Shown piece by piece: positions 1,719 through 52,885 of a DNA stretch of 64,000 nt (position 1 is its first letter; each line of letters begins with the position of its first letter). The translations under genes and the position numbers were made by a program. The notes under the pieces were generated by a model that had not been told where the DNA came from, made no database searches, and worked only from the letters and a program-made list of their open reading frames with translations. The DNA is from an uncultured Gammaproteobacteria bacterium (GTDB lineage Bacteria > Pseudomonadota > Gammaproteobacteria > Eutrophobiales > Eutrophobiaceae), in assembly GCA_951812995.1 (NCBI GenBank), contig CATOTD010000003.1, positions 1 through 64,000 of the forward strand, given 5' to 3'.

Positions 1719-1921
1719 ATGCCCATACCCCGCGCTACAGCCAGAGACCTTTGCATTAAAGTGATATTTGTTTGTTACAATAAGTCCCGCTATTTAAGAT
1801 TATTGTTCATTTAAGACACCCTTAAAACCCGCCCTTACCAGAACATTAGCCCAGAACAAGTTCAAGTACCCACGATTAAAACTGCATGATTTGCCCGGAT
1901 TGACAAACCACTGACAAACGC

Positions 1922-2110
1922 TTGGTGACACATTACATCGAGCACGAGCAAAGACACATACGGACCGTCGGCCATAAAGGCTATGACCCGTTCAAGCTGT
2001 TCAAAGCAGTGCGGCGAAGGCAATGGCACAGTAGTCTGAGTGACCCTGTGCTTGAGCATGACTTGGCTGTATGTGCTGACTTCGGATGTGTTGTGATGTT
2101 GCTAGCTGGT
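1922..2110 (+). pseudogene. Decayed transposase N-terminal fragment
   Basis: Translation GYDPFKLFKAVRRRQWHSSLSDPVLEHDLAVCADF resembles the N-terminus of IS5-like transposases (xDPxxLFKxxLxxQWHxLSDPELExxLxxRxDF). Confidence 0.5.
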
Positions 2111-2124
2111 GATGACAGGAGGAG

Positions 2125-2177
2125 TTACCCGGCCACACTTGACCCGACCCCGACCACGCTTGACCCACCGTGACTCA
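2125..2177 (-). repeat. Degenerate pentanucleotide array 1
   Basis: Reverse complement reads ggtgg gtcaa gcgtg gtcgg ggtcgg gtcaa gtgtg gccgg. Confidence 0.65.
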
Positions 2178-4868: not shown

Positions 4869-5062
4869 CAATGTTCCGCCGTAACAGTTTGGGCTTGATT
4901 TGGTGCTCACCGTTCATCAAGAGATGCCAGAACAATAGGCAACACCCTGAGTTTGGGCACAGATAGTTGGGACGTGATTCGCCATTTTGACGGTGATAAA
5001 AAATAGTGGTCGTCATAGGCAGGGAGTATTGATCTAACACCTTTGCGCTGAAGCGATACTTG

Positions 5063-5125
5063 TCCGACTCGACTCGATCCAACCACGCCCAGCTTGCCCC
5101 CACCACACCCCAGCCCGATCCGACT
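5063..5125 (-). repeat. Degenerate pentanucleotide array 2
   Basis: Reverse complement: gtcgg atcgg gctgg ... cgtgg ttgga tcgag tcgag tcgga. Confidence 0.65.
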
Positions 5126-20170: not shown

Positions 20171-20277
20171 GACGCTTCCTCCTCTTAAAAGTGTTTAGTC
20201 TAATATAGTACGTCTATTGTGTATAAGATAGGAAAATTTATACCGACAACGGTTCAATTTTCAGCCACGGTGCGTGA

Positions 20278-20388
20278 TTGGTCAAGCGTGGCGTGGGTCG
20301 GGTCGGGCGGAGTCAAGTCGGGCGGAGTCGAGTCGGGCTGGGTCAAGCGGGGTCAAGCCGGGCCGGGTCAAGCGGGGTCGGATCGGGC
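20278..20388 (+). repeat. Degenerate pentanucleotide array 3
   Basis: ggtcg ggtcg ggcgg agtca agtcg ggcgg agtcg agtcg ggctg ggtca agcgg ggtca agccg ggccg ggtca agcgg ggtcg gatcg. Confidence 0.88.
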
Positions 20389-20555
20389 ATCGCTTTAGTG
20401 CAAAGGTCTCCGTGTGTTTGAACCCACGCACGACTTGCGCTAGTCTATGGCTTTTAATCTTGAAGTCATTTTCATCACATTTATCAATTTCACAATACAA
20501 GCTGTTGCTGTGATAATTATCATGCAACGGCTACACGCACACAGGAGATGTTATT

Positions 20556-23696: not shown

Positions 23697-24452
23697 ATGA
23701 AACGTCTTGATAATAAAATTGCGGTTATTACCGGATCTAGCAGTGGCATTGGTGCTGCAATTGCGATGTTATTTGCAATGGAAGGCGCGACCGTTGTTGT
23801 GAACTATCTAAAATCAAAAGATCGTGCGGAAAAATTACTTGCGAAAATAAAAACGCCAAGTCAACCATTCATTGCTGTGCAGGCAGATATAGCAAATAAA
23901 GATGATATTGAATATTTACTAGCGACAACCTTGCAAACATTCGGCCGTGTCGATATTTGGGTCAATAATGCGGGTGCCGATATTCTAACCGGCGTGGGTG
24001 CGTCAGCAAATCTAAATGAGAAGCTGGATCAGTTGTTAAACGTTGATCTTAAAGGGACGATGAATGCTTGTTGGGCGGTTACGACAGCGATGCAAAAACA
24101 AGGCGGCGGGGTGATTGTGAATATGGGTTGGGATATGTCGGTGCATGGCTTTGCAGGTCTGAACCCACAAATCTTCGCCGCCGCAAAAGCGGGTATTCTG
24201 GGATTTACCCGATCATTTGCCAAGACGGTGGGCCCTGATATTCGAGTCAACATGGTTGCGCCTGGGTGGATCATGACGGCGTTTGCTGAAGAGCACATGG
24301 ATGATGCGTATTACCAGGCGCGCATCAAGGAAATACCGCTAGGCCGTTTTGGCAACCCGCAAGAGGTTGCAAATGCCGTGGTCTTTTTAGCCTCCGATGA
24401 AGCATCCTACTTATCCGGGGAAATTATTAAGATAAACGGTGGTTTGGTTTAA
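23697..24452 (+). CDS. SDR-family oxidoreductase
   Basis: 251 aa; VITGSSSGIGAAIA, WVNNAGADI, SGEIIKINGGLV. Confidence 0.92.
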   Translation: MKRLDNKIAVITGSSSGIGAAIAMLFAMEGATVVVNYLKSKDRAEKLLAKIKTPSQPFIAVQADIANKDDIEYLLATTLQTFGRVDIWVNNAGADILTGVGASANLNEKLDQLLNVDLKGTMNACWAVTTAMQKQGGGVIVNMGWDMSVHGFAGLNPQIFAAAKAGILGFTRSFAKTVGPDIRVNMVAPGWIMTAFAEEHMDDAYYQARIKEIPLGRFGNPQEVANAVVFLASDEASYLSGEIIKINGGLV

Positions 24453-24500
24453 TGCTATAGGCTTATCGCACGCCATCGCCGTCAACTTGTGTATAACGCT

Positions 24501-24813
24501 GGGTCGATCTGAGTCGGCCCGGGCTGAGTCAAGTTGAGCGGGTTCGGACCAAGCAGGTTCAGGCTGAGTCGAGTCAAGCCGGGGGTGGCTGAGTTGAGTT
24601 GAGCGGGGCCGGACAGGGTTCAACGTGGTTGGATCGGCCCGGGCTGATTCGGCCCCCCGGGGCAAGCCGGGTGTGGCTGAGTCAAGCGGGGTTGAGCCGG
24701 GTGTGGCTGAGTCAAGTCGAGCGGGTTCGGGCTGAGTCGAGTCGATCTGAGTTGAGTCGAGCGGGGCTGGGCCAAGCAGGATCGGGCGTGAGTCGATCTG
24801 AGTCAAGCCGGGG
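24501..24813 (+). repeat. Degenerate pentanucleotide array 4 (largest, ~310 bp)
   Basis: Parses almost entirely into 5-mers: gctga gtcaa gtcga gcggg ttcgg gctga gtcga gtcga tctga gttga gtcga gcggg gctgg gccaa gcagg atcgg; 30-bp superrepeat gccgggtgtggctgagtcaag. Confidence 0.93.
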
Positions 24814-25759
24814 ACTTAAATTCTTTTGCAGCAGCACCACGTCCGACTTGCATGGCCATCTCCCGCCATTTCCGACCTTCGATATATTGATACATAGCGG
24901 CAGATGTTTGTTCGAGTTCTAACATGCGTGCATTAATGATGTCGGTAATGTCAATAATCCCCATTAGATATTCATTATCATCCACCACCGGTAAGTGGCG
25001 TATGTGTTTTGCATTCATCACGGACATTAAAGTTGCCAAACTATCATCAGGATGGCTGCATATAACCTTGTGTGTCATAAATTCTGATGCCGCTTGATCC
25101 AGGATGGGTCGGTCAGAATTTGCTATGCCATTGACAATATCACGCTCCGACAAGATGCCGACTATTTTCCCTTGCGGGTCAAGGACAATAACACTGCCAA
25201 TCTTGTATTTAGTCAGGATTTTGCAAGCCGCAAGGATCAATGTATCTGGCGTAATTGTATGTATGTCGGAGTGCTTATTTTTTAAGATGCTGGCCGCTGA
25301 TATAGACACATCAATATTGCGTTGATGAATTATTTTTGCCAGATTATCCACTAACTGTGACGAGAATAAATTTAGAATTGGAATGATTTGATGTTTATTC
25401 AGGAACAGGCCGAAGGGGCCATATTTCGGTGTGTATTCATATCGAATCTTGATGACGACGTTTTTCTGTTTTTGTTGCATGCTTGTTATGCGGCGTAAGT
25501 ACGTGACTGGTAATAGATAATTGCCACCTGTGACTTGCATGGTGAAGTGAGATTGTGGCTTCCATGCTATACATTCCTCCTCCCATGCGCCGCTGACTCT
25601 ATGGTGAACACGCCTGATCATACCCAAACCTTCACCGGCAAGATGTTCGACTCGAATAATATCCGGCCCCGCGTCAGCAAAGCATTTTACATCAGTCAGT
25701 ATCTCCCAGATGTTATCGAGTTTGCCTTTGACCCGCTTATCGTTTTCAAGTATCAACAT
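24803..25759 (-). CDS. SRPBCC-like (START/polyketide cyclase-type) domain fused to a CBS-domain pair
   Basis: 318 aa; N-term VKGKLDNIWEILTDVKCFADAGPDI...MIRRVHHRVSGAWEEECIAWKP; C-term two CBS units IGSVIVLDPQGKIVGILSERDIV and HLPVVDDNEYLMGIIDITDII. Confidence 0.75.
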   Translation of the reverse strand: MLILENDKRVKGKLDNIWEILTDVKCFADAGPDIIRVEHLAGEGLGMIRRVHHRVSGAWEEECIAWKPQSHFTMQVTGGNYLLPVTYLRRITSMQQKQKNVVIKIRYEYTPKYGPFGLFLNKHQIIPILNLFSSQLVDNLAKIIHQRNIDVSISAASILKNKHSDIHTITPDTLILAACKILTKYKIGSVIVLDPQGKIVGILSERDIVNGIANSDRPILDQAASEFMTHKVICSHPDDSLATLMSVMNAKHIRHLPVVDDNEYLMGIIDITDIINARMLELEQTSAAMYQYIEGRKWREMAMQVGRGAAAKEFKSPA

Positions 25760-37147: not shown

Positions 37148-37249
37148 CGTCTATATTTTCTTGCGACTCATCGATCAGATGGCGGCAAGACTACATAACC
37201 TAGTATTTTAGTCAAGTATTTTTTATTCGTTTTAGTCAGGAGTAAGGAT

Positions 37250-37358
37250 GAGTCGGTCGTGGTCGGGCCAGATCAAGCTGGGTCGGTCGTGGCGTGGCTC
37301 GGATCGGATGTGGTTGGGCGTGGAGGGGCATGGGTCGGATCAAGCTGGGCCGGGGTGA
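37250..37358 (+). repeat. Degenerate pentanucleotide array 5
   Basis: gtcgt ggtcg ggcca gatca agctg ggtcg gtcgt ggcgt ggctc ggatc ggatg tggtt gggcg. Confidence 0.85.
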
Positions 37359-49639: not shown

Positions 49640-49790
49640 AGTGGGTTGAGATAGGTCGGGATCGGGTCAAGCGTGGTCGGACCGGAGCGGGTCAAGCGTG
49701 GTCGGGGTTGGGTCGCGATGGATTCCGCTGGGTTGCGCTGGATCAAGATGAACCGCGCTGGATCAAGGTGAGGTCGCGCTGAGGTCGTGA
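49640..49790 (+). repeat. Degenerate pentanucleotide array 6
   Basis: gatcg ggtca agcgt ggtcg gaccg gagcg ggtca agcgt ggtcg ... cgctg gatca agatg aaccg cgctg gatca aggtg. Confidence 0.88.
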
Positions 49791-49931
49791 CAGCCCAGGC
49801 AAACACCAGGCAAACCCGCGCGGCCGTAGGCAATGACCGACTATTGCTGACTGTGCCTGGCTGACTTTGTCTGGCTGGCGGTTCATGATTCATATATAGC
49901 CAAGGTTTCGTTGCTTTATTACAATCAACGG

Positions 49932-52540: not shown

Positions 52541-52677
52541 CTGGGCCGGGCTGGACCGAGATGGGTCTGACCCGGCCAAGTTGGATCGGGTTGGGCGTGG
52601 CGTGAGTTGAGCGTGGTTGGCGTGGGTCGAGCGTGGTTGGTCGGGGTTGGCGTGGGTCGAGCGTGGTTGGTCGGAGC
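52541..52677 (+). repeat. Degenerate pentanucleotide array 7
   Basis: gggtt gggcg tggcg tgagt tgagc gtggt tggcg tgggt cgagc gtggt tggtc ggggt tggcg tgggt cgagc gtggt tggtc; near-exact 30-bp superrepeat. Confidence 0.88.
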
Positions 52678-52885
52678 TACATCTTGATCAACCGCCAAAA
52701 ATGTTAAAAACGCTACTACTTTTGCAGAACTATCTAAAAGTATTTCTGCACGGTTGGCAAAGCCATGAAGTCGAACAAAGCGTTTAACCTAATATGAAAG
52801 CAATGGTGCCTGAAATAAATTCAATATAGAATAGTAGGGTAAATTTGCTTTATAATAAATGTTATGTATCAAAAGGAGCATCAAA

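Follow-up and report, generated by a model that had tools for sequence, protein, structure and literature searches.

The analysed stretch (hereafter the window; 64,000 nucleotides from an uncultured gammaproteobacterium) carries at 24498–24812 an array of degenerate 5-bp units. It lies between convergent genes, as a preliminary description had stated: an SDR oxidoreductase gene (23697–24452, plus strand) and a gene for a CBS-domain protein (24803–25759, minus strand; Pfam CBS). The boundaries of the array, whose units read CYYRR on the minus strand, were set with a five-state hidden Markov model (HMM; score, 153). The array overlaps the 3′ end of the CBS-domain gene by a few bases, and the final codons of this gene (..KSPA*) are array sequence, with the stop codon TGA taken from a CTTGA unit. 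Homologues of the protein terminate in ..EEFS or ..EEFG, indicating that the array, or the element to which it belonged, replaced the original gene end. The named relatives of the gene are from uncultured gammaproteobacteria (including Thiotrichaceae bacterium UBA973); we sought an empty site through synteny with relatives, but their gene order around the CBS-domain gene differs. Two open reading frames within the array had no match in a Pfam search; at least one of the six frames is open in 58 of 73 longer arrays of the genome.

The 5-bp period is well separated from chance. The mean match at lags of 5–30 was 0.467 compared with 0.297 ± 0.010 in 1,000 dinucleotide-preserving shuffles (z = 16.8, P = 0.001), and the Fourier power at 1/5 reached 3.9, above the maximum of 2.51 among 500 shuffles. 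A 30-bp tandem duplication inside the array (24666–24716) consists of GCCGGGTGTGGCTGAGTCAAG twice, with exact matches at 24666 and 24696. The same HMM recovered all seven window arrays that had been named before and made no calls in three Markov control windows; the six further arrays were all significant in the period test (z = 2.7 to 12.3), the weakest being that at 2127 (P = 0.019). The preliminary description was therefore correct about the periodic array, its 30-bp superrepeat and its six companions. Its designation of this array as the largest member holds within the window, where it is the longest, but not genome-wide, where it ranks 8th by length and 15th by score among the 118 arrays collected. 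The R-G-Y-S-R register of that description also needs correction: on the plus strand the grammar is RRGYY, which corresponds to CYYRR on the minus strand. In a pool of 2,820 clean pentamers read along the C-rich strand, 85% begin with C, C or T predominates at positions 2–3 and G or A at positions 4–5. Approximately fifteen words account for most of the arrays, among them CCCGA, CCCAG, CTTGA and CTCAA.

The suggestion that the arrays form a dispersed family proved sound: at least 118 segments totalling 17 kb occur at roughly a hundred places in the 3.05-Mb gammaproteobacterial genome of this one species, counts that come from pattern searches, BLAST and fetched stretches and represent lower bounds. 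Inspection of the sequences flanking other arrays of the genome revealed conserved element ends. A left end (GAGACCTTTGCACTAAAGCGATACTTGTCC) precedes the array, a right segment (GTGGCTGAAAATTGAACCATTGCCGGGATAA...TTTTGTGCAAAGGTCTC) comes after it, and alignment of complete elements gave terminal inverted repeats (GAGACCTTTGCAC... and ...GTGCAAAGGTCTC). With ≤3 mismatches allowed, a 21-base stretch of the left end matched the genome at 52 places (0 for the reversed-pattern control) and was absent from 36 genomes belonging to its genus and family, and the right end was found at 128 places compared with 4 in the control. Both ends were present at 25 of 101 array loci, the left end only at 33, the right end only at 14 and neither at 29, proportions somewhat biased towards left-end carriers because some loci were fetched by that end. 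The flanks of 19 complete elements indicated a target-site duplication of exactly 5 bp (identity averaging 0.64 versus 0.39 for re-paired flanks; reached in 0 of 2,000 shuffles), with four perfect duplications (AGCAT, GCATT twice and GGCCT; 0.36 expected) and no signal at lengths of 2–4 or 6–10 bp. The elements are short (113–651 bp without nested insertion sequences (IS)), dispersed and multi-copy (more than 50 left ends), and the array keeps one orientation with respect to the left end. The conserved ends and the 5-bp duplication identify the carrier as a transposed, probably gene-free element, a miniature inverted-repeat transposable element (MITE). The preliminary description, which had not recognized a MITE in the arrays, was mistaken on this point, given both ends at 25 of the 101 loci, one end at 47 more and the target-site duplication. 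Two copies of 177 bp on two contigs (C2:760968–761144 and C16:4361–4537) are identical, have identical 300-bp flanks and are inserted in a TTTACAGGCC palindrome; the contigs may overlap here, or the segment was duplicated recently.

Copies in different states of preservation are found within the window. At 20238–20410 (minus strand), a copy retains a left terminal repeat (20410–20386; GAGACCTTTGCACTAAAGCGATGCC), an array (20388–20294) and an inner right segment (20268–20238; GTGGCTGAAAATTGAACCGTTGTCGGTATAA) and has lost the outer right terminus; both of its end alignments were reached by 0 of 500 shuffles. The copy at 5036–5125 (plus strand; HMM and end tests) comprises a left end (AACACCTTTGCGCTGAAGCGATACTTGTCC) followed by an array (5064–5125) and has lost its right end, and its paralogue at C12:65809–66045 has kept both. 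Downstream of the tmRNA gene, a long-form copy (1744–2177, plus strand), identified by the HMM and by a paralogue at C9:132987 with a conserved flank, has its left terminus at 1744 and then approximately 350 bp of non-repetitive sequence before an array at 2127–2177. Long forms at this locus and at C7:18507, C9:132987 and C4:245723 carry approximately 200–350 bp of non-repetitive sequence between left end and array, which may derive from the parent element. The remaining arrays, at 37240–37354, 49642–49800 (HMM, period and end tests) and 52541–52678 (with a 30-bp tandem block; HMM, block search and end test), all on the minus strand, are bare. The array at 24498–24812 is also without recognizable MITE ends: remnants were absent on both sides (P = 0.87 and 0.70) in a test that recovers both end segments at 20.3 kb. 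Bare and end-bearing arrays have closely similar pentamer frequencies in general (r = 0.95), and the correlation of this array by itself with end-bearing arrays is only 0.54 (61 units). It is assigned to the MITE family by common grammar and vocabulary only, and we therefore infer, from sequence, that it is probably a decayed, end-less relic of the element lying between two convergent genes.

The array appears to be confined to this species, and the type of element that carries it is more widespread. Searches of 11 congeners and of 368 further genomes sampled from the class gave no array match, and the word GGGTCAAGC, which occurs 86 times in the genome (6 for the reversed control), was not enriched in 57 relatives. 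Searches with the exact end pattern in GTDB and viral contigs, a set from which this genome itself may be absent, and with the right end in plasmids gave no match. Four relatives, two of them congeners, contain MITEs of 66–210 bp that share the terminus of the array-bearing element (GAGACCTTTGCACGA or GAGACCATTGCACAA; L238, L234, L235 and L239). Their interiors differ from those of the array-bearing element and contained no array by the same HMM. Perfect 5-bp duplications (TATTA/TATTA, TATAT/TATAT) occur in two of the four, L234 and L238, one from a congener and the other from elsewhere in the family; the match is 4/5 in L235 and 3/5 in L239. The economical reading is that a family-wide MITE type multiplied in this lineage after gaining the pentamer array. 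In a different genus of the same family, sister MITEs of approximately 140 bp (L234 and L248) have an interior formed by a long imperfect hairpin (TGGTCTAAAAAACGGAG...TTTTTAGACCA), so that identical termini here enclose another kind of filling.

Arrays of different copies have a common pentamer vocabulary but not a common order. Local alignments between arrays scored a median of 40 compared with 37 after unit shuffling, and the ends of the elements align at roughly 75–92% over 60–100 bp. At two loci with flanks 93–98% identical to those of a paralogue, the arrays differ through block losses and rewritten units. Tandemly duplicated blocks of 27–178 bp were found in 24 arrays, several of them perfect and directly adjacent, and the arrays themselves measure between some tens of bp and 454 bp. 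Identical units are less frequent at lag 1 than among random pairs (0.041 versus 0.057) and are enriched at lags 4 and 8. Given the block duplications and the unlike neighbouring units, the arrays behave as block-growing minisatellites rather than slipping microsatellites. The idea of a slippage-evolving boundary consequently survives in part: the arrays do grow by tandem duplication, but of blocks, and not by slippage of single units. Targeted hypermutation was considered and rejected; transitions outnumber transversions 144 to 50 between duplicated blocks, compared with 131 to 99 in element ends. This excess is moderate, comes from alignments that favour it and is no strong evidence for the idea. 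This turnover, like transposition itself, is deduced from one genome.

No autonomous parent with the MITE termini was found among the end pairs examined, and IS5 family membership is not claimed for this reason. One transposase does lie between two MITE ends (C4:245723–247456; L153/L185), but it belongs to an IS1595 element with its own inverted repeats and an imperfect 8-bp duplication, and was rejected as the parent because it is nested in a long-form copy. This IS1595 element encodes a 309-amino-acid transposase and a 100-amino-acid passenger with a weak match to the type I restriction HSDR_N domain and to the defence protein MAD2. Other IS (ends TGGAGACCTCGAACAACG and TGGAAGCCTCTAAAAACCG) lie at the edges of or within many arrays (for example, C8:56990–58077, C4:223610–224900 and C15:9223–10519), as if the arrays were favoured insertion targets. 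Approximately 150 DDE_Tnp_1 domain matches in 3.05 Mb, together with a gene order near the CBS-domain gene that is unlike that of relatives, suggest a genome in heavy IS expansion.

We consider it very probable that the arrays occupy the interior of a non-autonomous DNA transposon, a MITE with IS5-type termini, that multiplied in one species. A trans-acting transposase, presumably of IS5 type, would recognize GAGACCTTTGCAC... and ...GTGCAAAGGTCTC and insert the element, mostly between genes, with a 5-bp target-site duplication. The interior would have acquired a (CYYRR)n minisatellite in a fixed orientation with respect to the left end. The array of each copy would then diverge faster than the ends through point mutation and the duplication or loss of 27–180-bp blocks. 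Decay and the later insertion of other IS into arrays may strip the termini from many copies, so that bare arrays would be relics. The 29 loci without any end, together with the three other bare arrays in the window besides that at 24498–24812, could instead mean that the array itself disperses, for example by recombination or conversion, with the MITE as one carrier among others. This is unlikely, as the orientation to the left end is constant, many bare edges adjoin inserted IS copies and array copying predicts a linear homology between arrays of which little is seen. Growth as a simple microsatellite through single-unit slippage accounts for the short units and 5-bp period, but seems very improbable given the depletion of identical neighbours, the enrichment at lags 4 and 8, the size of the expanded blocks and the dispersal through a MITE.

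A host function is probably absent; nothing that we tested points to one. Selection by the host for a putative protein-binding platform, in which a nucleoid or other protein keeps the 5-bp-phased RRGYY units and the MITE merely delivers them, would fit the retention of grammar and vocabulary despite scrambled order and the position of arrays near gene ends. It is nevertheless quite unlikely, considering that all 11 congeners and all other sampled genomes do without the array, that array length is variable and unit order near random, and that flanking genes are convergent in 24 cases, tandem in 40 and divergent in 9 (rough open reading frame count). An RNA structure or, as raised in the preliminary description, a transcription-termination zone would suit the placement between convergent genes, and the G-rich strand does fold better than mononucleotide shuffles (mean z = −3.4). 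This advantage disappears against column-preserving shuffles (mean z = +0.16 for the G strand and +1.31 for the C strand), on which basis we rejected RNA or hairpin selection and with it the structural form of the proposed RNA-binding platform. As the gap at 24498–24812 had no terminator or promoter match and an Rfam scan returned tmRNA only, leaving the arrays without an Rfam family, we regard such a role as highly unlikely. Why the CYYRR vocabulary persists amid scrambled order is not accounted for by a neutral minisatellite alone. There is a slight chance that active maintenance preserves the vocabulary, either through a DNA-binding protein or through a replication or repair process whose rewriting of arrays keeps to a fixed five-base grammar but shuffles the units; if so, the MITE would carry a functional and fast-evolving putative binding array.

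The array-bearing MITE, with its 5-bp unit without spacers, differs from REP/BIME (palindromic units of 20–40 nucleotides) and CRISPR (repeat and spacer), neither of which the preliminary description had recognized here, and from known structured RNAs. It most closely resembles BrickBuilt of Porphyromonas gingivalis, a 23-bp minisatellite inside a MITE with the terminus GAGACCTTTGCA/TGCAAAGGTCTC, which is attributed to IS5-type termini common to ISPg1 and ISNme1 (PMC4596501). Both are short elements, non-coding in BrickBuilt and probably so here, that place a tandem array between an asymmetric leader and tail, are intergenic and are confined to one species group; the termini are identical over 12 bp, and unit number varies between copies. 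Some copies of each lack the leader and/or the tail: among 19 copies of BrickBuilt, 11 have both flanks, 3 the leader only, 2 the tail only and 3 neither (PMC4596501). The 23-nucleotide repeat of BrickBuilt (AGAYCATARTATCCTCTCRTRTG) had no match in 248 loci. Its units differ by ≤11% mismatches within an element, in contrast to the degenerate 5-bp unit here; its copies are about five times fewer than the approximately 100 of the pentamer MITE, and its reported target duplications are of 2, 4 and 5 bp rather than consistently 5 bp. MITEPgRS/MITE464 of P. gingivalis also holds a tandem repeat inside a MITE and has a terminus of GAGAC type, but its unit is 41 bp long and its ends are themselves repetitive (PMC4596501). 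The IS5-family elements with GAGACC termini (ISNme1 and ISPg1) and the Neisseria ATR MITE are similar in terminus through ISNme1 (GAGACCTTTGCAAAA/TTTTGCAAAGGTCTC; PMC4596501, Table 2); ISNme1 encodes a transposase, a parent of which no counterpart was found in this genome, and ATR consists of AT-rich repeats. The pentamer MITE explains an odd period-5 signal, and such arrays can wrongly pass for regulatory regions or small open reading frames. With a copy number above that of BrickBuilt and with array-free sisters, it allows bacterial minisatellites in transposons to be compared, copy by copy, in their origin and turnover. It is a BrickBuilt-like architecture with a new short unit rather than a new regulatory system, and adds to Bacteroidota a second, gammaproteobacterial lineage with a tandem array carried by a MITE of GAGACC-type termini.
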